Shown here piece by piece: positions 1,077 to 19,034 of a DNA stretch of 20,271 nucleotides (position 1 is its first letter; each line of letters opens with the position of its first letter). Origin of the DNA: a virus. The stretch spans positions 1-20,271 of IMG/VR virus record IMGVR_UViG_3300014962_000057; one strand, given 5' to 3'. The notes below the pieces were generated by a model. That model was not told where the DNA came from. It did not search any database and saw only the letters and a program-made list of their open reading frames with translations. A program made the translations under genes and the position numbers.

Positions 1077-1150
1077 TAAAAAACGCAAATAAGGTATATA
1101 TATAGATATATTATGTTAAATAGAACAGAAATACATAATTAGGTTTGACC
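1077..1150. other. AT-rich intergenic gap between S74 gene and terminase
   Basis: The gap contains an alternating AT stretch around 1094-1113. I see no convincing hairpin terminator or TAnnTTTG box. It separates two blocks of different codon use and would be a natural module boundary or an artificial join. Confidence 0.4.
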
Positions 1151-1546
1151 ATGGCGAAAGGACAGGACACAATTGACAAATTGGAGGCATACGCTTGGAA
1201 GTACATTCAGGAGTGCATTAACCATACAAAGCCTCATGTATCCGGTAATGGCAAGGTAATACAGGTACCGGACAGGCACATACCTACCATTGATTACTTT
1301 CTGCGTATATGGATACCAATGCAGGAAGGAATGGAGCTGATTGCAAGGAGGACATGGTACGATTGGCTGAGAACAGATGGCCCTAAATCGCACACTATAA
1401 AAAATATATCAGACGAATTTGACAGCCTGGCACGTGATATTGTGGGCAATGAGGGCAAAGGTATATTCTATGCCAAGAACAAGCTCGGCATGCATGACAG
1501 GCAGCAGGTTGAAACAAGGAACGTGGAGCGTTTTGATTTTGAATAA
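1151..1546 (+). CDS. terS: Terminase small subunit (TerS-like)
   Basis: A 131-residue protein just upstream of the large terminase. TerS oligomers recognise phage DNA and feed it to the packaging motor. A helix-turn-helix-like segment around ARRTWYDWLR (about residues 63-72) resembles those in TerS proteins. The C-terminal pattern KNKLGMHDRQQVE matches the end of the P22/gp3-type small subunits, in which a 'KN..G..D..' motif precedes the tail. I chose ATG at 1151 over the TTG two codons upstream (1145). No Shine-Dalgarno is visible. Length and position fit TerS. The sequence is too divergent to be certain without a profile search. Confidence 0.65.
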   Translation: MAKGQDTIDKLEAYAWKYIQECINHTKPHVSGNGKVIQVPDRHIPTIDYFLRIWIPMQEGMELIARRTWYDWLRTDGPKSHTIKNISDEFDSLARDIVGNEGKGIFYAKNKLGMHDRQQVETRNVERFDFE

Positions 1547-1601: not shown

Positions 1602-1625
1602 AAAGGGTGGCATATGCTGCCCTTT
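1602..1625 (+). promoter_or_regulatory. Hairpin in terL leader
   Basis: AAAGGG pairs with CCCTTT around TG/TG (two G-U wobbles) and GC/GC, giving a 10-bp stem with an ATAT loop. It ends 8 nt before the terL ATG at 1634, downstream of the promoter candidate. The following bases are only TTT-G-TT, so it is a weak intrinsic terminator at best. Possible roles are attenuation between terS and terL, control of terL translation, or a packaging-recognition structure. Confidence 0.5.
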
Positions 1626-1633
1626 GTTATGAT

Positions 1634-2836
1634 ATGAGTGTAGTCAAAGGATATAAGCCCCATGCCAATCAAAGGATGATTCATGATTCAATCAATCTTG
1701 GACCATACAAGTACTATGTGCTGAACATAGGCAGGCAGTTTGGCAAGACTCTCCTGGGTATTAATCAGATGCTATGGTGGGCAATCAATGATAAGGGTTG
1801 CAATATCGCATGGGTCACACCGGTATACAAGCAGAGCAAGAAGGTGTTTGATGAAATGGAGCGCGTGACCAGGGCATCCGGCCTGTTTGAATTCCACAGG
1901 TCTGATTTATGGATCAAGGGCTTTGGGTCAACCATCACATTCTATTCAGGTGAGAAGCCTGACAATATACGAGGTAATACATTTGATTACCTTATCATTG
2001 ATGAGATGGCATTCACCAGGTCCGAGCTGTGGGATGAAGTCCTATCTGCCACGGTGTTGGTCAAGGGCAAGAAGGTCCTGTTCATATCAACACCAAAGGG
2101 GCGCAATCACTTCCACAGGTTGGCACTACAGCACAACTATGATGAGAGGTACAAATACTTTCAATTCAGCAGCTATGACAATCCGCTGATTGATGCACAG
2201 GATTTGGATGAGCGCAAGCGGTCATTACCTGACCATGTGTTCCGGCAGGAATACCTTGCTGAGTTTGTGGACAATGCATCCGGATTATTCCGAAACGTGC
2301 AGGCTTGCATAGGCACAGGACAGCCAACAGGCAAAGCATATGCCGGGCTGGATATTGGTAGGGCTGATGATTACACCGTGCTATCCGTGATCAACCAAGA
2401 TGGGCACATGGTGGCTGTGTACAGATGGAGGCACATGGAATGGTCCAGCATCATTGATCAAGTGGAGAAACGAATCAAGCAGCACAATGCGCTTACATTG
2501 GTAGAGGTCAATAACCAGGGTGATGTGTTCTATGAGATGCTGGCCAAGCGGTGCCGGAACAACATAGAGCCATGGGTTACCTCATCCAAGTCCAAGCCGA
2601 TCTTGATTGAGGATTTGGCTGTGGCATTTGAGCAGGCAGAGATTAGGGTGCATGATGAGCGGTGGCTGCTTGATGAATTGGAGGCATTTACGTACATTTA
2701 CAATCCGGCAACAAGATCGGTGAAGTATGCAGCACCGGATGGCTTACATGATGATGGGGTGATATCCCTGGCATTGGCTTGGCATTGCAGGAAGGCATAC
2801 AGTAAACGAGGGCAGTATAAAGTGATGAGAGTATGA
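1634..2836 (+). CDS. terL: Terminase large subunit (ATPase and nuclease)
   Basis: A 400-residue DNA-packaging motor with both expected domains. The ATPase has Walker A GRQFGKT (residues 33-39), Walker B DYLIIDE (118-124) and the coupling motif ISTPKG (151-156). The RuvC-fold nuclease has its acidic residues in GLDIGRADD (D240), LVEVNN (E291) and HDDGVISLALAW (D373/D374). Family knowledge: ATP hydrolysis pumps DNA through the portal, and the nuclease makes the initial and final cuts. The frame is open upstream to a GTG at 1607, but ATG at 1634 lies just past the leader hairpin and gives a normal N-terminus. The stop overlaps the next gene by ATGA (2833-2836). Confidence 0.95.
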   Translation: MSVVKGYKPHANQRMIHDSINLGPYKYYVLNIGRQFGKTLLGINQMLWWAINDKGCNIAWVTPVYKQSKKVFDEMERVTRASGLFEFHRSDLWIKGFGSTITFYSGEKPDNIRGNTFDYLIIDEMAFTRSELWDEVLSATVLVKGKKVLFISTPKGRNHFHRLALQHNYDERYKYFQFSSYDNPLIDAQDLDERKRSLPDHVFRQEYLAEFVDNASGLFRNVQACIGTGQPTGKAYAGLDIGRADDYTVLSVINQDGHMVAVYRWRHMEWSSIIDQVEKRIKQHNALTLVEVNNQGDVFYEMLAKRCRNNIEPWVTSSKSKPILIEDLAVAFEQAEIRVHDERWLLDELEAFTYIYNPATRSVKYAAPDGLHDDGVISLALAWHCRKAYSKRGQYKVMRV

Positions 2837-3546
2837 ATGTAATTGAGGTAAAATATCCAAGGCACATAAGGGAGTGCAGTCCTATCATGGTCACCAAGTG
2901 GCTACATATGGCACCATTGTGGAAAGAGGCACAGAGTAACCTGAGCGGTATGCTTGACTTCCATGTGCAGGTGGTAAATGTATTCACTGGATTAAAGGTC
3001 AATGAAATCAAGAGGGCAGCAGTTGATGATGTGGTGACTCTGAGCTACAGGCTGCTGAACATGATTGGTGATCATGAGATGGAAGAGCCATCCGGCAGGG
3101 TCGTGATTGATGGGCAGGCATATGTATATGAAAAGGATTTTAGCAAGATATCAACAGGTCAGATGATTGACATGAAGCTGATTGAGCGGATACCTGAGGA
3201 GCCTCACAAGGCATTGGCAATATGCTACATTGAGGAAGGCATGGAATACTGCCAAAAGGATGAGAGAGGCAGGGTGATGAATCCCAATGAAAAACGGGAG
3301 GAGATATTCAAGGACCGATTCCCAGGTGATGAATTTCTGAACTTCTTTGGTTTTTTTTTGCGCGAATCCGAGAGCAGGAGAAACGCTATCTTGGCTCTGC
3401 AGGTAGTGAGGATGGAAGCACAGAGGATGAAAGTGATGAAGGAAGTCCAAAAGACAGTGAATGGTTCACATGGACAGGAGTCATCCTCAGGCTGGCTAAA
3501 GAGCTTGGTAGGACGATTGACCAAATCACAGATCAACCGTACATAG
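2833..3546 (+). CDS. Tail assembly chaperone, zero-frame product (G-like)
   Basis: A 237-residue protein. Residues 95-175 have an alternating beta/helix pattern (YVYEKDFSKIS, GQMIDMKLIER) that I associate with Bacteroidota phage tail assembly chaperones. In lambda-like systems gpG coats the tape measure before tail-tube polymerisation, and a rarer frameshifted form gpGT recruits tube protein. At 3349-3360 the message reads GGT followed by nine T and G. The zero frame continues for 62 residues with an amphipathic helix (ESRRNAILALQVVRMEAQRM) and a Ser/Gly tail. In the -1 frame the same bases encode an acidic linker and a T-like domain. Start is ATG at 2833, ATGA-coupled to terL. The chaperone call rests mainly on the frameshift architecture. 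Confidence 0.6.
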   Translation: MNVIEVKYPRHIRECSPIMVTKWLHMAPLWKEAQSNLSGMLDFHVQVVNVFTGLKVNEIKRAAVDDVVTLSYRLLNMIGDHEMEEPSGRVVIDGQAYVYEKDFSKISTGQMIDMKLIERIPEEPHKALAICYIEEGMEYCQKDERGRVMNPNEKREEIFKDRFPGDEFLNFFGFFLRESESRRNAILALQVVRMEAQRMKVMKEVQKTVNGSHGQESSSGWLKSLVGRLTKSQINRT

Positions 3547-3647
3547 AAACCATGTTTTGGATGAACTACCTTAGGCTGAAGGATGAACAGCAATACATAA
3601 GAGATAGAGAGCATCAGCAACAAATGGCAGCGAAGTATGGCAGATAA
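2833..3647 (+). CDS. Tail assembly chaperone, -1 frameshift fusion (GT-like)
   Basis: If ribosomes slip -1 on the T run at 3351-3359, the product is about 271 residues: 175 shared, then 96 from the -1 frame, ending at TAA 3645-3647. The -1 frame is open from the T run onward. It encodes an acidic low-complexity linker (EDGSTEDESDEG), then GVILRLAKELGRTIDQI and a charged helix with MNYLRLKDEQQ and a C-terminal AAKYGR. 'LakelGrt...I' followed by a helix is the typical pattern of the T part of G/GT chaperones. Its stop overlaps the next gene's ATG (3637) by 11 nt, in keeping with neighbouring junctions, whereas the zero-frame stop would leave a 90-nt gap. A missing T in the assembly would also fuse the frames. 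Frameshifting is inferred, not measured. Confidence 0.65.
3351..3359 (+). promoter_or_regulatory. T9 slippery site for -1 frameshift
   Basis: Nine T follow GG, read in the zero frame as GGT TTT TTT TTG. T-TTT-TTT satisfies the X-XXY-YYZ slippery rule. Slippage by -1 joins the chaperone head to the T-like extension. Homopolymers of this length can also cause transcriptional slippage or sequencing indels. Confidence 0.65.
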
Positions 3648-4167
3648 CTTTGATTATTTACAGAATCTTGGAATCAGCAAGGCTGATATGGCCAAGCCTG
3701 CCAATGCCTATGAGGAGATGCTGCTGCAATTAGCCAAGCAATTGACCATGGACCTACGCAAGGCTGTGGAAAATAAGGCATCCAATACCGGAGGTTTAGC
3801 ATCCTCCATTGCTGCGCTGCCGGATGGAAAAATGACTGTAAGTCTACAGGCTGATTTCTATTTCAAGTTTATGGATGAGGGGGTTAATCCTGTCACCGGT
3901 AAAAGATTTGAAACACCTTACAGCTTTAAAAAACCACAGGTAGCACCTGCCCATGTGTCTGCATTGCAGTCATGGAAAGGATATACTCCACAACGAGCAT
4001 ATGCATCTGCATATGTAACCAAGAACGTATACGGTTTAAAACCAAGGAAGATCCTGGACAGCGTCATAACACCGGATACATTGAACAGAATGAGTAACGA
4101 TCTCAGCACCTTGATGGGTATGACCTTAGAAGTGGTATGGGATAAAAACACAAAGACATGGCGGTAA
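3637..4167 (+). CDS. HK97-gp10-like neck/tail completion protein
   Basis: A 176-residue protein: an N-terminal helix (LLQLAKQLTMDLRKAVENKAS), then LASSIAALPDGKMTVSLQADFYFKFMDEGVNPVTGK, a Pro/Phe loop (PYSFKKPQ) and a C-terminal helix/strand region. 'L..SI......' followed by an aromatic strand and 'DEGV.p.tG' is the usual layout of HK97 gp10-type proteins that sit at the head-tail junction or cap the tail. The start overlaps the -1-frame stop of the chaperone by 11 nt, and the end overlaps the next gene by 10 nt. In most phages this gene lies between head and tail modules; here it follows the terminase and chaperone. The family is recognised by pattern only. Confidence 0.5.
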   Translation: MADNFDYLQNLGISKADMAKPANAYEEMLLQLAKQLTMDLRKAVENKASNTGGLASSIAALPDGKMTVSLQADFYFKFMDEGVNPVTGKRFETPYSFKKPQVAPAHVSALQSWKGYTPQRAYASAYVTKNVYGLKPRKILDSVITPDTLNRMSNDLSTLMGMTLEVVWDKNTKTWR

Positions 4168-5348
4168 CAATAATACAGGAGCCTGACCTATTCAGCGCAG
4201 CATGTAATCCGGTTGTATTTACATTTGACAGTGATCAAACAATTCAGCCAAATTTCAGCTTTTATGTAGAGCTGTATGTACAGGGAAATTTACATAGCGC
4301 ACATCAAGTATTTCCTGAGTCAGCCAATTATGGCAAGTTTGATGCAAGTCAAATCATGCGAGCATTAACAACTACACCGGCAATTGATGGTGCATTTGTA
4401 CAGGATTTCAGCACGGCATTGCTGCAGATTAGAATTGTAGTGTTTGAAAAATATGGCCTTGTTCCCACATTACAAGCCAGCGCATCAAGCAATACGGTTA
4501 GAGTGTTTAATGGCTCTTTGAAATATGATCAATTTGTGACATGGAATAGTGACATTTATGATATCAAGCAAACAGATGGCGCATTGTTTACAACTAACTT
4601 TCCAAGGTCACAGAAAGCATGGTGCCGATATGATGAGTATTTCTTCCTTGGATTGTTTGCCAAGAGGTTTGTCTTGGGTGATACATACACCATGTACTTT
4701 GAGTTATTTGATTCCAATGGCAATAGTATTGATTCAGCATCATATTCAATTACTCATGAAAGATATTGGCAGTTTTGTGTTGGTCCTGAAAATATAGTAA
4801 ACAATACAACCATTTTACAAAGCAATTTTGACATATGTGCATATTATGAGGTATATGTGGAGTATACTGATGGAATGACTTTGAATTATACGGAACACTT
4901 CCAAATATGGTATGATCAAGATTGCACACGATATGAGCCCGTAAGGTTGCATTGGCTAAATAAATTTGGTAGTTATGATTCATTTAGTTTTGACCTGCTT
5001 TCCCAAAGTAGTGGTAATGTGACAGCTAACAATTACCAGCAGCAAATTGGCCAATGGAGTGCAGGAAATTACATATTTCCACGAAACGCTTCACAGATGA
5101 AACACTACAGCAAGAGATCAATTGAGCAGTTAATAATCAACAGCGATTGGATTAAACAGGATGTACAACATTGGTTGGTGGAGGAGCTGTATGAAAGCCC
5201 AAGGGTATATATTGAGAGTGGTACCTCATTTGTGGCTGTGATGGTTACCAATCCGAACTATGTCAAAAAGCTCAGACGCAAGGATGGCTTGATACAGGAG
5301 TTGGTGCAGATTGACAAAACGCATGAATATATAAGCCAGCTGAACTAA
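4158..5348 (+). CDS. Tail structural protein, baseplate-like (hypothetical)
   Basis: A 396-residue beta-rich protein with many Tyr, Phe, Trp and Asn and no signal peptide or membrane segment. Recognisable parts are an opening MAVTIIQEPDLFSAACNPVVF, a central RLHWLNKFGSYDSFSFDL and a C-terminal ELYESPRVYIESG with a VMVTNPNYVKKLRRKDGL block. I associate this combination with conserved tail/baseplate proteins of Bacteroidota phages that have no assigned enzymatic function. It is TAATG-coupled to the next, larger tail gene (5346-5350). That position, between the chaperone block and the fibre genes, supports a distal tail or baseplate ring. I do not recognise a named domain. Confidence 0.5.
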   Translation: MAVTIIQEPDLFSAACNPVVFTFDSDQTIQPNFSFYVELYVQGNLHSAHQVFPESANYGKFDASQIMRALTTTPAIDGAFVQDFSTALLQIRIVVFEKYGLVPTLQASASSNTVRVFNGSLKYDQFVTWNSDIYDIKQTDGALFTTNFPRSQKAWCRYDEYFFLGLFAKRFVLGDTYTMYFELFDSNGNSIDSASYSITHERYWQFCVGPENIVNNTTILQSNFDICAYYEVYVEYTDGMTLNYTEHFQIWYDQDCTRYEPVRLHWLNKFGSYDSFSFDLLSQSSGNVTANNYQQQIGQWSAGNYIFPRNASQMKHYSKRSIEQLIINSDWIKQDVQHWLVEELYESPRVYIESGTSFVAVMVTNPNYVKKLRRKDGLIQELVQIDKTHEYISQLN

Positions 5349-12100: not shown

Positions 12101-12726
12101 CCAGCATCAATGAATATCAAAACGCAAGATTGGAATCACAGCGCACAGCTGATGAGCAAAGAATCAAAGACCTTGATGATAAGAAAGCTGCTGAGCTTGC
12201 TAATGAGAATCTGACTGCTGATCAGAAAAAAGCTATTGAGAAAAAGTATGCCATGGATTCATATAAGATCCAGCTGGCAATGTATGAACGTGAGGAGAAA
12301 ATCAAAAAGCAGCAGTTTGAGCGTGATAAAGCATTCAAGATTGCCAATGCCATCACAGGTACAGCTATGGCAATAGTGAAAGCCATTGCAGAGTTTGGAC
12401 CTCCTCCATCAGTTATGGGTACAATTGGTATTGCATCAGCTGCAGCCATTGGTACTGCACAGATTGCTGCCATTGCTGCACAAAAATACAAAGCAGGTTC
12501 TGCACCATCAATGCCAAATATTGCAGAGGGTGGTGGTGCTGGAATGGCAGGAGCATCTGCCAGCTCATTTACCGTATCTCAAAATACACAGGGAACAGAT
12601 TTGACTCAATTAATGAACGGTGAAAGTGGTGGCAAGATTCCAATGGCTAAGGTTGTTGTATTGGAGAGTGATATCACCGGGGTGCAGAATAAGGTGGCAG
12701 CACAGGAAAAACTTAGCACCTATTAA
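9169..12726 (+). CDS. Tail tape measure protein
   Basis: An 1185-residue helical protein, by far the longest here, which sets tail length and is ejected ahead of DNA. Residues 50-250 hold four repeats of exactly 56 residues. About 340-445 is Ala/Thr/Gly-rich. Hydrophobic segments at about 447-468 (VALIATGIGAILVGVGLLAA) and 491-522 are the usual membrane-inserting part. About 535-1080 is charged coiled coil with three SHOCT-like hairpins (KGKISKAQYEE at 757, AGAITEEQYRN at 849, NGYLTEEQYRN at 915). The C-terminus has a second hydrophobic stretch. No lysozyme or peptidase motif is seen. At the rough rule of 0.15 nm per residue it would span about 175-180 nm. The stop overlaps the convergent minus-strand gene by 14 bp. 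Confidence 0.9.
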   Translation: MANKEAIFRLKLDTGNAVSQVQKLDKSTQTLNKDLNSLSQTAEQDLGTAIKELEGQMEKMAMAGKRNTQEYKALGAELSRLQGIFSAVESDIKVLGANMNDVSGSISAMEDRLYTLAATGNKNTQEFKDLFAELTRLKTVQREVDAIVDQSAISMDDTSAAIGLMEDRMYRLAVQGKQNTKEYRELTSQIAKYKTTLLDADMAVETQMISTNDLSGSIGKLEDRMYALQAQGKQNTKEFRDSAQQLVQYKKQLQGVDMQIDAMMQGGMRLNTALSVGNTAMAGMQGFEASMKLAGVESEAMTKAMQKMQLAVTVLTSIQQVSIALQRQGLIVTTLANAADKIRNFVLTGQFTATEALVAAEGELIAVEGAETVATGASTAADVGATAATGALTAAKQGEVAATGEQIAVGVTETGTKTGQAVATSGLAAANTTNAAATTTATLATKALRVALIATGIGAILVGVGLLAANWDKVSQALFNVYDWFNKLGPLMKIVAGSVMIAFGPILLMIMGTMKLMEAFGIIDDEQTRKTKANAEKRTKDRDKELKKEANNIKGRSARIQAGYDFEIRMAQAAGKSTTELERKKLVAMINTTKQLRINLQQRMANYWQEIEMLRKVGDTDSDRYKKLTKQFKDARTEYRKNNQEYYKNSQDLKVMDAENAQAAKDAAKERAEAAKQAAEASAQAAEDKRRKIIEIEKAERAELLALEKEYQDNLLALKEDGQEKEREQAIRAFEEYKNTFLEKSIEEEIKAEEEKYAKGKISKAQYEENLANLRLNAINNLSEEERKVLTSKEALLNKDLAGIDQKYLDLRSKMQEEYAGMQGDEFDKELRDFTKAQREKLVKLTEMLKAGAITEEQYRNEVEAMDAAFTAKQTEITQERNEKYQAMVRDKYDQEIVELKRKTQESEAQLSIGYKNGYLTEEQYRNAILTLQADTAEKEKAIQEAKAKELREKELAGITSTLEMIQGFLDTMGEINASINEYQNARLESQRTADEQRIKDLDDKKAAELANENLTADQKKAIEKKYAMDSYKIQLAMYEREEKIKKQQFERDKAFKIANAITGTAMAIVKAIAEFGPPPSVMGTIGIASAAAIGTAQIAAIAAQKYKAGSAPSMPNIAEGGGAGMAGASASSFTVSQNTQGTDLTQLMNGESGGKIPMAKVVVLESDITGVQNKVAAQEKLSTY
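9316..9918 (+). repeat. Four 56-residue (168-nt) repeats within tape measure
   Basis: Repeat cores start at residues 50, 106, 162 and 218 with constant spacing. They share 'I..LEdrmy.LaaqGkqNTkEyr.l..ql...k'; examples are MEDRLYTLAATGNKNTQEF, MEDRMYRLAVQGKQNTKEY and LEDRMYALQAQGKQNTKEF. The last two copies are closest in DNA. Fifty-six equals eight heptads, in keeping with a continuous coiled coil lengthened by unit duplication. Confidence 0.85.
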
Positions 12727-13354
12727 GGAAGTCAATACAGCTGCCCTGTTTGAATTCATCTGAGATGCTGAAACATCCATATTTATGTAGCAGCTCATTA
12801 GCTTTCATGATGTCAGGCTTTCCAATCTTTAAATTCTCACCATCCATTGACAGAAAAGTATTCACATTTAGGTAGAGTGATTTAAGAAAGTGGTTGTGTT
12901 TCTGCCAGGTGATTTCATCAAATAGCTCAATGAGCTTGATGCTGTTAAACATCATTGGCTGATGGCATTCAAAGTTGAACGTGGTATATTTGTAATGATT
13001 TAGAAAGTCCAATGTATGTTGGCATGCCTGCTGATATACCGGTGAATGTTTCGGATTGACTTGCAATCTGCCGTTTTTAATATTGGTATATGGGTCAAAA
13101 TTGCTGCCGATAAAAAAGTCATCATTCATGTAGACAGCATCTCCGCCAATCTCCCTGGCAAACGTGAGTATTTTGTCAGTCACATCACATCCACGTTCAT
13201 GATATCTCTTTTTATGGGGTATATTCTCCCTGTTTGGTAGTGCATCTCCCACGGTTATGATCTCCGCATTTGGGAAAGCAGCCAGCACCCAATCAATTGA
13301 GCGCAGAATATCCCAATCATTTAGGTGCCGTATGTATGGATAGACAAATACCAT
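12713..13354 (-). CDS. Stealth/glycosyltransferase-like moron
   Basis: The only minus-strand gene in the window, 213 residues from the ATG at 13354; an upstream ATG at 13369 would add MYFCS. The pattern YPYIRHLNDWDILRSIDWVLAAFPNAEI, followed by VGD, then DAVYMNDDFFIG (residues 72-83) and FNFECHQPMMFNS (126-138), matches the 'MNDDFF' family annotated as glycosyltransferases in actinophages. It is related to Stealth capsule phosphotransferases. Asp in NDD would bind metal and sugar nucleotide. A role in modifying host surface polysaccharide or virion glycans is inferred. It converges on the tape measure (14-bp overlap) and diverges from the protease gene across 24 bp. Its orientation and its isolation between two late genes are those of a moron. 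Confidence 0.65.
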   Translation of the reverse strand: MVFVYPYIRHLNDWDILRSIDWVLAAFPNAEIITVGDALPNRENIPHKKRYHERGCDVTDKILTFAREIGGDAVYMNDDFFIGSNFDPYTNIKNGRLQVNPKHSPVYQQACQHTLDFLNHYKYTTFNFECHQPMMFNSIKLIELFDEITWQKHNHFLKSLYLNVNTFLSMDGENLKIGKPDIMKANELLHKYGCFSISDEFKQGSCIDFLNRC

Positions 13355-13358
13355 GGAA

Positions 13359-13366
13359 CAAAAGTA
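13359..13366 (-). promoter_or_regulatory. -7 box candidate for minus-strand gene
   Basis: On the minus strand this reads TACTTTTG, an exact fit to TAnnTTTG, ending 4 nt before the ATG at 13354. Transcription from it would give an almost leaderless mRNA and would favour 13354 over 13369 as start. No clear -33 TTG lies at the usual distance. Confidence 0.4.
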
Positions 13367-13379
13367 CATAATTTATGTA
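13365..13379. promoter_or_regulatory. 15-bp dyad in divergent gap (operator candidate)
   Basis: TACATAA-T-TTATGTA is a perfect inverted repeat around one central base. It lies between the divergent starts at 13354 and 13379, touching the -7 candidate of the minus gene and the ATG of the protease gene. It could be an operator or chance AT-rich symmetry. Confidence 0.35.
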
Positions 13380-14281
13380 TGAAGAAAGATCTGCCGGTAT
13401 ACGAGATTAAGATTGACCTCAATGATGAGGACACAGAGGTGACATTCAATAGCTTGGTGAGCAGTCCAGCGCATGAAATCAACTTTGAGACATTCAATAA
13501 AACACAAAGGTTTCAATTCAATGATGAAGAGAATGTGATTATTGGGGTTGCCATCTCAGCAGATACACCGATTTACAGATATGATTCAATAAGCAATGAG
13601 GAATACTATGTGGTGTTTACAAAGCAAGCAATTAAGGACATTGTGTATGACTATAGCCGTAAGGGGTATTTCAACAATGTCAACATTGAACACAATAGCA
13701 AGGATGTTGTGGATGATGTTGCCATGATTCTAAGCTACCAAGTTGATGAGAGCAAAGGATTGACTGCACCGGATAGATTTAAGGAGGTGAACGATGGCAG
13801 CTGGATAGTTGGGTACAAGGTGAGTGATGAAATCTTTGCCAAGGCCAAAGCAGGCGAATGGATGGGATTCAGTATTGAGGGGTTGTTTATGTTAACTGAG
13901 CAAGGTGCAAGCATGGAGGAAAACATGTGGGCACAGATAGCTGAGGAATTGGATGCATTACGCCAAGCATTTGCAAAGATGCGTGTATCATTTGATTTTG
14001 ATGAGACATTAAGCACATCACGAGGTCAACAATTAGCCAAACGTCACCTATCATTAGGAGATGAGGTATTCATTGTGACAGCACGACAGCAAAGCAAAGG
14101 ATCATCAGTATATGAGATGGCTCAAAAGTTAGGCATACGCAAGGAGAATGTGTATTTCACAGGCGGAAGAGACAAGTGGCAAACACTAAAAAGACTTAGA
14201 ATTGATCGGCATTATGACAACAATGCAGAGCAGATTGCATTAATCAAGGAATTTACTGAGATAGATGCAGTCAAATTTTGA
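13379..14281 (+). CDS. Prohead protease fused to HAD-type phosphatase-like domain
   Basis: A 300-residue two-domain protein. Residues 1-175 look like an XkdF-type prohead protease (herpesvirus-protease fold): IIGVAISADTPIYRYD, His in NIEHN (H105), Ser in GFSIEGLF (S165). It would cleave scaffold and capsid precursors inside the procapsid. After a linker helix (178-199), residues 201-300 form a compact HAD domain with all motifs: SFDFDETLS (D206, D208), IVTAR (T234), GGRDKWQTL (K266) and HYDNN (D280). In HAD phosphatases the first Asp is the nucleophile. What it acts on here is unknown; nucleotides, DNA ends or a protein phosphate are possible. ATG 13379 is preferred to GTG 13325, which would lie inside the minus-strand gene. 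Scaffold and capsid genes follow. Confidence 0.75.
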   Translation: MKKDLPVYEIKIDLNDEDTEVTFNSLVSSPAHEINFETFNKTQRFQFNDEENVIIGVAISADTPIYRYDSISNEEYYVVFTKQAIKDIVYDYSRKGYFNNVNIEHNSKDVVDDVAMILSYQVDESKGLTAPDRFKEVNDGSWIVGYKVSDEIFAKAKAGEWMGFSIEGLFMLTEQGASMEENMWAQIAEELDALRQAFAKMRVSFDFDETLSTSRGQQLAKRHLSLGDEVFIVTARQQSKGSSVYEMAQKLGIRKENVYFTGGRDKWQTLKRLRIDRHYDNNAEQIALIKEFTEIDAVKF

Positions 14282-14318: not shown

Positions 14319-14900
14319 ATGAACGAGAACTTTAAGAAAGTGATGGATTCATTGGCTGAGTTTAAAACAATCCTTGCTGGACGCAAAGTTGCTACGCAAT
14401 TTGGTGAGGCTGTTTTGGAGGATGGTACTGCAATCCGTTATGATGGGGAAGAATTAGCCCCAGGAGAATCTGTTTATATTGTCACGGACAGCGAAGAGAT
14501 ACCAGCACCTGAGGGTACACATCGCTTGGGTGGTGATATGGCAGGAATTTCTATTGTGGTTGATGCCGAGGGCAAGATCGCAGAAATTATTGACGAGCGT
14601 CAAGGCAATGAAGTCACACCTGCGCAGCAGGAGGCAATGTCTGCAGAGCAGGTTCGTGAAATTGTGGAAGGTGAGGTTTCAACTTTTGGCAAGGCTTTCA
14701 AGTCTATGTCCGGAATTGTTGAGGCAATTGCCAAGCAAAATGATCAACTTAGCAATGAGCTTGCTGAATTAAAGGCTGAATTTGCAGCGTATAAAAACGC
14801 ACCATCTAATGAGGTCAAAGAGGCAGAGAAATTTGCTAAGAAAAGTACGGCAGGAATGACCCACCGCCAATTGTTTCTTTTAAATAACATGAAAAAATGA
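14319..14900 (+). CDS. Capsid scaffold-like protein
   Basis: A 193-residue acidic protein between protease and major capsid protein, the usual place of a scaffold. The N-terminal half has a beta-rich part (AIRYDGEELAPGESVYIVTDSEEI...GISIVVDAEGKIAEI) and the C-terminal half is helical coiled coil (about 105-165: AEQVREIVEGEV; QNDQLSNELAELKAEF) with a basic Phe/Leu-rich tail (KKSTAGMTHRQLFLLNNMKK) that could dock to capsid subunits. Scaffolds guide procapsid assembly and are then removed by the prohead protease. It is ATGA-coupled to the capsid gene (14897-14900). Its leader is A-rich without a Shine-Dalgarno. No family is recognised with certainty. Confidence 0.6.
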   Translation: MNENFKKVMDSLAEFKTILAGRKVATQFGEAVLEDGTAIRYDGEELAPGESVYIVTDSEEIPAPEGTHRLGGDMAGISIVVDAEGKIAEIIDERQGNEVTPAQQEAMSAEQVREIVEGEVSTFGKAFKSMSGIVEAIAKQNDQLSNELAELKAEFAAYKNAPSNEVKEAEKFAKKSTAGMTHRQLFLLNNMKK

Positions 14901-15868
14901 GCTTAAAAAAGTTTATCAAATCTAAGTTTGACTATGATGTAGCAGACTTATCTCCATACGTTGATGATACACGTGAGGACTTAATCGTGCGTTCAGTAAC
15001 TGAAGCACAAACATTACAGTACATTACGATTCAGGAAGGAATCAAAGGAACTGAGGATCTTAAATTGTTGGACGATTCAATCGTTTATCAAGAGGCTAAC
15101 TGTTCAATGACTCCCGAAGGTGATACAGTTTTCTCTGATCGCCAATTGAGCGTGAATGCAATTGGGTACATGAAGAGATTCTGTCAAAAAGACCTTGCTG
15201 GACTTTGGACACAGTTGGCTCTTCGTCCGGGTGCAATGGCTGAGGACAAGGAACTTCCTTTTGAGGCACAACTTACTGACTATTTATTGAAGCTACATGC
15301 ACGTGAATTGGACAACTTGATTTGGAAAGGTAATGTTGCAACAGGTTCCGGTAACTTACAATGGATGAACGGATTCCGTCAATTCCTTACAACAGCTAAT
15401 GGAGCTGTGGATTTGAACACTTCAAACACTACATCAATTAATGCATCCAATGCATTTGATGTGTTCTATGAGTGTTTCATCAACACACCTGCACAAGTTG
15501 CTGAACAAGCTGATTTGATTTGTTTCACAGGCCGTGAAAACTTCAATTACTTATTGAAGAACTTAGTGGATCAGAATTTCTACCATTACAGCCCTGAGAC
15601 AATTGCTAACTTGAATGAGTGTTTGGTACCAGGTACTAACATGCGAGTTGTTAAGGTTAACGGATTGAATGGTTTGGACAACATCTATACAGGACGTTCT
15701 TCACATTTCTTCTTTGGGACTGACTTATCATCTGACTTTGAGTCTTATGATTTGTGGTATTCATTTGATGATGATGTGATTTACATCCGTTCTAAATTCC
15801 GTGCAGGGGTACAGGTTCCTTTCTTGGATGAAATCGGAGTATGGAATGGTACAGGATCTCCTAACTAA
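14897..15868 (+). CDS. Major capsid protein (HK97-fold candidate)
   Basis: A 323-residue protein that would form the icosahedral shell. Position after protease and scaffold, length, and segments such as ALRPGAMAEDKELPFEAQLTDYLLKL, DNLIWKGN, ICFTGRENFNYLLKNL and YDLWYSFDDDVIYIRSKFRAG fit a capsid with an HK97 fold (N-arm, E-loop, P- and A-domains). Codon choice is more uniform than in neighbours (many CGT, GGA/GGT and AAC codons), as expected for a highly expressed gene. No long delta domain is evident; a separate scaffold takes that role. The fold call rests on context and composition. Confidence 0.75.
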   Translation: MSLKKFIKSKFDYDVADLSPYVDDTREDLIVRSVTEAQTLQYITIQEGIKGTEDLKLLDDSIVYQEANCSMTPEGDTVFSDRQLSVNAIGYMKRFCQKDLAGLWTQLALRPGAMAEDKELPFEAQLTDYLLKLHARELDNLIWKGNVATGSGNLQWMNGFRQFLTTANGAVDLNTSNTTSINASNAFDVFYECFINTPAQVAEQADLICFTGRENFNYLLKNLVDQNFYHYSPETIANLNECLVPGTNMRVVKVNGLNGLDNIYTGRSSHFFFGTDLSSDFESYDLWYSFDDDVIYIRSKFRAGVQVPFLDEIGVWNGTGSPN

Positions 15869-16749: not shown

Positions 16750-17032
16750 ATTCATTGAGGAGCAAACGCAGGAGTCTTTGTACTGCATTCTGACCAATAT
16801 CAGCACAGGCATTCCACGTTATGATGAGTTTGTCCTGATTGATGGTGTTGATGTGACATTCCCATACGCAGGTTTTTACACATATAAAATATACCAACAG
16901 GCAAGCAGCACCAATTTGGACCCTTCGCTGTCTGATGGAATGGTGGAGGAAGGCCGTGCCCATGTTTATGAGGTAGATTCTCCATCTAATTACTTTGATT
17001 ACAACGTGACAAATTTCGTCTATGAGCAATAA
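16661..17032 (+). CDS. Head/tail-associated small protein (hypothetical)
   Basis: A 123-residue protein from ATG 16661; the frame is open further upstream, but the preceding residues look non-coding. The pattern PYYLFEFIEEQTQESLYCILTNIS, then VTFPYAGFYTYKIYQQASSTNLDP and EEGRAHVYE, is one I associate with many Bacteroidota phages near the portal gene, with no known function. Beta-rich; likely a virion component. It overlaps the previous gene by 89 nt and the portal gene by 11 nt. Confidence 0.55.
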   Translation: MLRIERNQQNTLIVTVSELTTIPAPYYLFEFIEEQTQESLYCILTNISTGIPRYDEFVLIDGVDVTFPYAGFYTYKIYQQASSTNLDPSLSDGMVEEGRAHVYEVDSPSNYFDYNVTNFVYEQ

Positions 17033-19034
17033 GGTTTTAAATGTCCAATTTAGCAAGTCATTCACCGCACCGGTGGAGGAATTGGATAAGGCACAGGGTT
17101 TCATTAAGTGGGGCAAAAAAAATGACTATCCTTTTTTCTTGATTGATCTCCTGCACGGTTCTGCCTGGCACCAAGGAATTGTTAAAAACAAAAGTTACTA
17201 TATTGCTGGAGGTGGAATTGAAACGGTTTCAGGTGATGCACAGTCTTTCATTAACAATGAATACCGTGACTTTGATATGAACGAGGTTGTGCAGCGCATG
17301 ACCTTTGACTTTGAGGTGTTTGGTGCCATGTGTGTTAAGGGTACCTGGAATAGAGAGGGTACAAGAGTGGTGGCATGGGAGCATTTGGATATTGATGCCT
17401 GCCGATTGTCTGAGGATGAGCGTACACTTTATGTATCGGATGATTGGAATGCACGCAGGCAATCACCGGAGGATACAAATTTCCGAACATATCCTGCCTT
17501 AGATGAGGACAATCCGGGCGGTTCATTCTTTATATATTACAAGGAGCCAAGTAAACAGGCCAAGGGAGAGAAAGGAATCTATCCAAAGCCTCCATACGTG
17601 GGTGGAATCACAGCAATACAGACCGATTGCGACATATCAAGATTCCACATGTTTGAAATCAGCAACGGATTCAAGGCCGGTACCTTGATTAATTTGCCTG
17701 GAGGATTTCCTGAAACAGCTGAGGAGGAGCGCAAGATACGTGAGCAGATAAAAGGACCTGTTCAATCTGTGGAATCAGCCGGTGAGATTATTATCACATT
17801 CAGTCAGACCAAGGATGATGCACCAAGTGTGATGCAATTGTCAGGCAATGACTTGGATAAGCGGTATGAGATGACCGAGAAAGCTGTCCAACAGAATATT
17901 CTTGTGGCTCATTCCATCACTGCACCTACATTGTTTGGTATCATTCAGCAGGGATCATTTAATGCAGCAGAGAGTGCAGATTTATTTGAGATATTTAAGA
18001 TTACATATGTAAGCTCACGGCAGAAACAGATTGAATGGTTATTAAATTACATGTGTACATTGAGCGGTAGCACGGCAATCATTAAGCTGAAAGATGTATC
18101 TCCATTGGGTGTAGCACAAGATTCAGCAGCAACAACAACAGATACAACTATACCAGCTGATCCATTGACTGAGGCTACAATTGATGTGGCTAAAACAGCA
18201 TTAAACGGAGCGCAAATTGCATCAATCATTGATGTGGTGGCAGCCATTAAGGAAGGAGTGTTAACACCTGAGGCTGCATTGCAGGTATTATTAGCATCGT
18301 TTCCAACGATTGCAGAGGATCAAGCCAGGCAAATTGTTGGATTGCAATCCGGTGATATGTCATTCTGCAACCATAAGCAGATGTTTAGCAAGGAAAGCAT
18401 TGAATTATTTGAGCAACATGGTGAGGCACGTGAGCAGTTTGAAATAATCAAGAGTGTTCCAATTGAATGGGATACACCAAGCGAGGAGGTATTCAATCAT
18501 GAGGCACAATTGTTTGATGAGATAGGGCAGATAATGGTGCAGCTTACTGATCAAGAAAAGGCTGTATTGACATTATTGCAGGAAGAGGATGAAGAGGCTG
18601 GCTCAATTGCCAAAGCATTGGGTGAACCATTGCAGGTGATTGTTCAAATCATTGATAAATTAGTGATATTGGGCCTGTATGAAAAGCCATCTTTAGATGC
18701 TAATGGTGTGCGCATAGGTGGATCAGTTACATCAACAGGTGGTGAGATAGTGAACAGGATACCAACATCTGAGCAACCAAAATATGAGATACGTTACAGC
18801 TATGAAACACGTAAAGATGTACCTCCTGTAAAAACCAAGAGCAGGAATTTCTGCCTGTCATTGTTGCGATTGGATAGGCTGTACACACGTGAGGAGTTAT
18901 CTTTTATCAGCGCACAAGAGGGCAGAGATGTATGGAGATATAGAGGTGGATGGTATACTAATCCGGACACAGGTAAAAGTACACCATGGTGCCGTCACAT
19001 TTGGATGCAGAACTTAGTAAAACGTAAGCAATGA
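17022..19034 (+). CDS. Portal protein with winged-helix insert and C-terminal Cys/His domain
   Basis: A 670-residue portal, the ring at the capsid vertex through which DNA passes. The N-terminal two thirds have portal features: WGKKNDYPFFLIDLL, a clip/wing region, ISRFHMFEISNGFKAG and the stem-like MTEKAVQQNILVAHSITAPTLFG followed by GSFNAAESADLFEIF. Two additions follow. Residues 505-560 (LTDQEKAVLTLLQEE...SIAKALGEPLQVIVQIIDKLVILGLYE) look like a winged helix-turn-helix. Residues 608-670 (RNFCLSLLRL, REELSFISAQEGRDVWRYRGGWY, WCRHIW) resemble the Cys/His C-terminal part of phage minor head proteins, suggesting a merged portal-minor head protein. It is ATGA-coupled to the next gene. Confidence 0.75.
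   Translation: MSNKVLNVQFSKSFTAPVEELDKAQGFIKWGKKNDYPFFLIDLLHGSAWHQGIVKNKSYYIAGGGIETVSGDAQSFINNEYRDFDMNEVVQRMTFDFEVFGAMCVKGTWNREGTRVVAWEHLDIDACRLSEDERTLYVSDDWNARRQSPEDTNFRTYPALDEDNPGGSFFIYYKEPSKQAKGEKGIYPKPPYVGGITAIQTDCDISRFHMFEISNGFKAGTLINLPGGFPETAEEERKIREQIKGPVQSVESAGEIIITFSQTKDDAPSVMQLSGNDLDKRYEMTEKAVQQNILVAHSITAPTLFGIIQQGSFNAAESADLFEIFKITYVSSRQKQIEWLLNYMCTLSGSTAIIKLKDVSPLGVAQDSAATTTDTTIPADPLTEATIDVAKTALNGAQIASIIDVVAAIKEGVLTPEAALQVLLASFPTIAEDQARQIVGLQSGDMSFCNHKQMFSKESIELFEQHGEAREQFEIIKSVPIEWDTPSEEVFNHEAQLFDEIGQIMVQLTDQEKAVLTLLQEEDEEAGSIAKALGEPLQVIVQIIDKLVILGLYEKPSLDANGVRIGGSVTSTGGEIVNRIPTSEQPKYEIRYSYETRKDVPPVKTKSRNFCLSLLRLDRLYTREELSFISAQEGRDVWRYRGGWYTNPDTGKSTPWCRHIWMQNLVKRKQ

Follow-up and report, generated by a model that had tools for sequence, protein, structure and literature searches.

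A viral DNA stretch of 20,271 bases (IMG/VR record IMGVR_UViG_3300014962_000057; hereafter the window, which covers the whole virus record and may be a genome fragment) contains an open reading frame (ORF) in which a prohead protease of the XkdF type is fused to a phosphatase-like HAD domain. The motifs of this domain are intact, it is under purifying selection, and in relatives it is repeatedly associated with the protease, with the portal and with the terminase neighbourhood. The place shared by these three is the procapsid and its packaging vertex, and we therefore propose, giving it an even chance, that the HAD is a packaging- or head-associated phosphatase, borne into the procapsid by the protease, probably released at an F-A-K tripeptide, and most likely possessing polynucleotide kinase (PNK)-type chemistry.

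The protease-HAD fusion protein

The ORF at 13379-14281 on the plus strand starts with ATG at 13379 and encodes 300 amino acids. Judged from its sequence, the N-terminal part (residues 1-200) is an XkdF-type prohead protease: PF14550 (Peptidase_S78_2/XkdF) matches residues 48-168 with 33.3 bits against a gathering score of 24 (E 5e-8, Pfam), and H105 and S165, which an earlier inspection of the DNA (the sequence-only reading) had taken as marks of a capsid protease, do not vary in the protease alignment of 11 diverse relatives. The same reading held that the HAD is covalently fused to the protease, and indeed both lie in one ORF. The search for this fusion in other phages, which it had recommended, yielded relatives in which the protease is about 63-98% and the HAD 56-92% identical; among cultured phages, Nonlabens phages P12024L/S carry the nearest relatives of the protease. 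The fusion is present in databases but unnoticed: A0A6J5N6Z6 (301 amino acids, 61% identity) aligns with its entire length, yet is named only XkdF in BFVD. We found no description of a HAD with XkdF, portal or terminase in the open-access papers searched, in line with the earlier statement that a HAD in this placement has no clear described function. The features of the fusion are as follows.

13379-14281, plus strand: fusion ORF, XkdF-type prohead protease (residues 1-200) and HAD domain (201-300); from the ORF list, Pfam, the structure model and relatives with the same fusion
13379-13513, plus strand: N-terminal tag, Y-E-I-x-I-D ... V-x-x-P-A-H ... F-x-x-F; invariant alignment columns
13514-13888, plus strand: protease core; PF14550 at residues 48-168
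13691-13693, plus strand: predicted catalytic His105; invariant
13871-13873, plus strand: predicted catalytic Ser165, GFS motif; invariant
13970-13978, plus strand: F198-A199-K200, candidate release site where the linker helix ends, immediately ahead of the HAD; enrichment of F[AS] at the junction, low model confidence
13979-14278, plus strand: cap-less (C0) HAD phosphatase domain, residues 201-300; structure model, structural matches, motif conservation, substitution rates
13994-14002, plus strand: HAD motif I, D206-F-D208, nucleophile and acid/base; conserved in 141/141
14078-14086, plus strand: HAD motif II, T234-A-R236; T or S in 141/141, R in 141/141
14174-14176, plus strand: HAD motif III, K266; 141/141
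14210-14224, plus strand: HAD motif IV, H278-Y-D280-N-N282; H278, D280 and N282 each 141/141

In an AlphaFold2 (AF2) model built from 54 sequences, with a mean predicted local distance difference test score (pLDDT) of 83, residues 201-300 adopt a HAD-like Rossmannoid fold at pLDDT of about 90-96. All four motifs listed in the sequence-only reading are present, motif I in full being D206-F-D208-E-T, and D206, D208, T213, T/S234, R236, K266, H278, D280 and N282 are unchanged in each of 141 distinct relatives. The relatives were collected by the patterns [RK][VI]SFD... and H[YI]D, which could force a match to motif I or motif IV at a given locus; T234, R236, K266 and N282 fall outside these patterns. 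Pairwise ratios of nonsynonymous to synonymous substitution rates (dN/dS) of 0.06-0.14 for the HAD, versus 0.035-0.076 for the protease, place the domain under purifying selection. The two outcomes that the earlier reading had set against itself, DFDET lying outside a HAD fold and decay of the HAD in relatives, were not encountered, save for three single contigs (L013, L014 and L093) with a frameshift in the fusion ORF, which we read as assembly error or decay in single contigs and left out of the structure alignment. On sequence and model, residues 201-300 can be described as a minimal phosphatase with an intact active site.

The top structural matches are HAD phosphatases, with other Rossmann-like folds scoring close. 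The best of them is the T4 Pnkp 3′-phosphatase (VIA Z 12.5, root-mean-square deviation 1.9 Å, 99 residues, 13% identity), and MDP-1 is also among the matches (Z 10.5). The PNK-type character suggested earlier is accordingly retained in the form “PNK-like”. We rejected an assignment to PNK from structure alone, as universal stress proteins come within 1 Z of T4 Pnkp, and did not file the domain as a PNK, as Pfam and PHROGs revealed no kinase domain in the 300-residue ORF. Sequence-profile matches of the HAD part are weak and under curated cut-offs (PF06189, 5′-nucleotidase, 4e-5; family profile against AphA, E 0.0028); the Pfam and PHROG matches, all weak, point to HAD-type phosphatases (5′-nucleotidase, AphA, polynucleotide kinase and nucleotidase); phmmer of the HAD against PDB gave no convincing match, and NCBIfam gave only matches under its cut-offs for the proteins tried. 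The family profile recovers AphA with the cap region missing; therefore, the HAD is cap-less.

HAD architectures and neighbourhoods in relatives

Among 100 non-redundant (NR) HADs, 32 are fused to XkdF proteases, 15 of them at the C-terminus and 17 in multidomain proteins, where the HAD mostly lies between the N-terminal tag and the protease core. The point just after the tag is where the HAD and other modules are inserted in relatives from the second HAD subfamily (ATGSN at motif III); these insertion proteins of 341-869 residues sometimes add DUF5824, a C-rich module and “YPEAA”, our label for a helical module of about 95 residues resembling phrog_2859. Up to five recognised modules occur in the multidomain relatives, and the protease itself is found alone, with the HAD, with the helical module, or with both. 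The protease tree requires 13 architecture changes, with at least 3 for the HAD forced by well-supported branches. In one NR representative (four contigs, L304, L312, L317 and L326) the HAD is borne by the C-terminus of the portal, which in L304 matches PF04860 at 5.6e-32. A separate HAD product from an internal start at M201 was considered and rejected, as this Met is found in the window clade and in L116 and is absent from other fused relatives.

Stand-alone HADs lie mostly next to terminase genes. The first subfamily includes 40 NR stand-alone HAD genes, 28 of which have at least 3.5 kb of downstream sequence, and in 26 of these 28 a large terminase, belonging to one of several types, follows within 3.5 kb on the same strand; counting both subfamilies, 50 of the 55 stand-alone HADs with enough flank precede, on the same strand, a large terminase gene (TerL) no more than 3.5 kb away. 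In three phages closely related to that of the window (L024, L187 and L240), the protease is unfused, TerL is about 70% identical, and the HAD gene comes immediately before that of the small terminase. The link fails for some remote relatives, such as the Flavobacterium elemo phages, in which a remote HAD has no annotated terminase within 6 kb. A separate XkdF protease is present in 11/17 records with a stand-alone HAD, and none of 29 records searched has more than one HAD. Both subfamilies include protease-fused and terminase-adjacent states, and a HAD tree, built from few columns, still needs several switches between them. The connection between the HAD and the procapsid protease made by the sequence-only reading can therefore be widened: since the HAD also occurs within the protease, at the C-terminus of the portal and just ahead of terminase genes, the link is to the head and DNA packaging as a whole.

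Several side observations were made in these relatives. In two of the portal-HAD contigs, an ORF matching the terminase query lies only a few bases from the fusion ORF (L304 2261-4012; L312 3040-4800), and in L161 the large terminase gene (3046-5136), which adjoins a stand-alone HAD, holds an intein. Long head-protease polyproteins in L098-L104, L287, L288, L296, L318 and L334 are composed of recurring modules (YPEAA helical, DUF5824, ESK..F..RC and C-rich H-W), with F-A frequent at the junctions. In BFVD, the annotation of two XkdF-like phage proteins (A0A6J5KKZ6 and A0A6J5PIT0) includes a Zeta toxin domain, which gives the protease another enzymatic partner. One scan of genome contigs for a prophage source gave two contigs from metagenome-assembled genomes and no clear prophage.

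Candidate cleavage sites and the head genes of the window

The covalent tie between protease and HAD may be transient, because a candidate cleavage site, F198-A199-K200, is positioned exactly at the junction. It ends a block of low pLDDT (residues 171-200), and F[AS] occurs no more than 10 residues before the HAD in 17 of 28 NR fused ORFs, versus 1.9 expected from the same ORFs. The following genes and sites of the window also bear on the head and its assembly.

1145-1546, plus strand: putative small terminase; position before TerL
1607-2836, plus strand: large terminase subunit; PF03237 1.1e-18, PF17289
14319-14900, plus strand: putative scaffold protein with N-terminal beta domain, coiled coil 109-160 and C-terminal helix 182-192; AF2, mean pLDDT 71
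14826-14843, plus strand: E-K-F172-A-K-K, candidate maturation site, some 20 residues before the end of the scaffold; conserved [KR]F[AS][KR]
14897-15868, plus strand: putative major capsid protein; position, size, gene order, phrog_11320 8.5e-17 (a PHROG without function)
17022-19034, plus strand: portal protein; phrog_11226 portal 5.7e-28

A similar signal is found in the putative scaffold, where [KR]F[AS][KR] is located about 20 residues from the C-terminus in 37/44 aligned relatives; of the other seven, three are ORFs truncated by a contig end and four carry KF-S-T or RF-S-T at this place. All 26 rows of an alignment share F172, which AF2 places in a low-confidence linker leading from the coiled coil to the C-terminal helix. 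In the portal, F-S-K occurs close to the N-terminus (residue 10) and within a linker (residue 455), while F[AS][KR] was not found in the putative major capsid protein or in several other window genes. Our search turned up no account of where the XkdF-type prohead proteases of these phages cut. Herpesvirus assemblin has two sites, one for release, following the protease, and one for maturation, close to the C-terminus of the scaffold, which would make it a natural parallel for cuts of the kind predicted here.

A segment similar in appearance to the putative scaffold is fused to the protease in gene 1 of Nonlabens phage P12024L (L105 101-1225), so that prohead protease and scaffold-like segment form one protein, annotated as hypothetical. 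The C-terminal end of the window portal carries a W-Y-T-N-P...P-W-C-R-H-x-W segment which, by eye, resembles a module of the protease polyproteins. Between the tape measure gene and the protease, a 218-residue gene on the minus strand (12713-13369; phrog_7999, function unknown) is common in relatives, and its product looks by eye like sugar-phosphate transferase-like proteins. At the left end of the window, a tail-fibre-type protein (202-825) ends in DIRLKKNI... and is overlapped by 4 bases by an ORF (822-1076) that continues with GVIAQEV; together they resemble an S74 endosialidase-type chaperone domain that a frameshift or an assembly error has split.

Proposed role, rival explanations and known systems

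We propose that the HAD works where heads mature and DNA is packaged. It would reach the procapsid as one polypeptide with the prohead protease, which would probably free it by a cut at F-A-K (198-200) and, at the time of release, also trim the scaffold near its C-terminus. Related phages would bring it to the same place otherwise, inside the protease, on the portal, or by expression just ahead of the terminase genes. The likeliest chemistry would be that of a PNK-type phosphatase acting on nucleic-acid 3′ ends, or on nucleotides, made in packaging or met on ejection. The sequence-only reading likewise expected the HAD to be packaged in the procapsid or released from it; the targets it considered, DNA ends, nucleotides or a scaffold, may each apply. 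A broader and more tentative version, which we consider possible at well below even chances, sees the HAD as an accessory enzyme, so far unrecognised, of the machine by which phages package DNA; it would have to be at the portal or procapsid while packaging proceeds, be brought there by any available head component (protease, portal or terminase operon), and be freed by the prohead protease through the F-[AS]-[KR] signal also used to trim the scaffold, paralleling the herpesvirus release and maturation sites. DNA packaging has been studied as terminase, portal, protease and scaffold, and a small phosphatase with an intact active site is found on or next to three of these four; such an enzyme suggests that packaging or ejection includes a chemical step for which tailed phages have not yet been examined, and the F-[AS]-[KR] pattern offers a testable cleavage rule for the XkdF-type prohead proteases of these phages.

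Several observations weigh against the packaging phosphatase and its release. The counts that link HAD and terminase derive from related phages chosen by similarity, are not independent, and are inflated by relatedness, while the HAD went undetected in 8 of 11 protease-only records of at least about 29 kb and is dispensable in some. F[AS] is absent from the HAD junction in 11/28 NR fused ORFs, F[AS][KR] also occurs at residue 153 within the protease core and in a few other window proteins, and across the window proteins only 8 occurrences are seen versus about 3.7 expected. As to chemistry, universal stress proteins (Z 11.7) and AphA (Z 10.7) leave the PNK phosphatases not cleanly separated, and fold alone therefore would not name the family.

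Of the rival explanations, the one we take most seriously, while holding it to be rather improbable, is that the HAD is the cargo of a polyvalent-type head protein, packaged through its attachment to protease or portal, cut loose by proteolysis and injected together with the DNA, after which it would heal RNA or DNA ends or destroy a host signalling nucleotide. In polyvalent proteins, which are believed to be packaged and then injected (PMC5512222), enzymatic domains are joined to assemblin-like peptidases, MuF and portal; similarly, shuffling has joined the HAD to other modules in proteins as long as 869 residues, the protease tree shows repeated gain or loss of C-terminal modules (13 changes), and A0A6J5KKZ6, a related protein of the XkdF-like kind, has an annotated Zeta toxin domain. 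However, an injected effector is not required to sit tightly at the terminase, as the stand-alone HADs do (50/55), and the complete motif conservation is unlike the fast turnover typical of conflict effectors.

An unlikely alternative is a protein phosphatase of assembly, which would enable packaging of the genome by dephosphorylating a capsid, scaffold or DNA-binding protein. Cap-less HADs frequently act on macromolecules, and the presence of MDP-1 among the structural matches agrees with this; on the other hand, we know of no kinase or phosphoprotein for these phages. A precedent is offered by baculovirus 38K, a HAD-family phosphatase acting on P6.9, the motifs of which are needed for genome encapsidation (PMC5899202), although it belongs to a different HAD family. 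We regard as highly improbable that the HAD fold is a mere convenient linker or scaffold piece, hitchhiking among head genes by recombination: the frequent shuffling of architectures and the absence of the HAD from many close relatives would fit such a passenger, but a purely structural role does not explain why every catalytic position is retained in 141/141 distinct relatives at low dN/dS.

Comparison with known systems shows that the protease half, with its invariant His and Ser and its location adjoining scaffold and putative major capsid genes, resembles other XkdF/Peptidase_S78_2 prohead proteases, from which the window protein differs by its extra C-terminal HAD domain. With the T4 Pnkp 3′-phosphatase, its best structural match, the HAD shares the S/T-x-R of motif II and the K of motif III, although it has no kinase domain and is fused to or located beside head genes; HAD phosphatases of jumbo phages have been discussed as RNA-repair enzymes (PMC7824862). 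The best sequence-profile matches, AphA-type class B acid phosphatases (HAD IIIB) and the 5′-nucleotidase PF06189, possess a cap region between motifs I and II that the window HAD lacks. Baculovirus 38K, a protein of a eukaryotic virus with P6.9 as its substrate, is likened by role. Phage HNH endonucleases are likewise small enzymes encoded beside the terminase, taken as part of the packaging machine (PMC5304195), but they are nucleases, whereas the window HAD is of the phosphatase type. As in polyvalent proteins (Iyer et al. 2017, PMC5512222), a head-type protease and an enzymatic module are combined in a multidomain head protein, and the window polypeptide has two domains of different activity (protease and HAD) within the head module; the assemblin-like peptidase at the C-terminus, however, is seen in L098-L104, L287 and others, where the protease core lies downstream of the HAD in the 341-869-residue proteins, and not in the window, where the protease is N-terminal and the HAD C-terminal. 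No HAD domain is named in the searched text of that paper, and what is new here is a head protease with enzymatic cargo in which the protease comes first and the cargo is a domain not named there.
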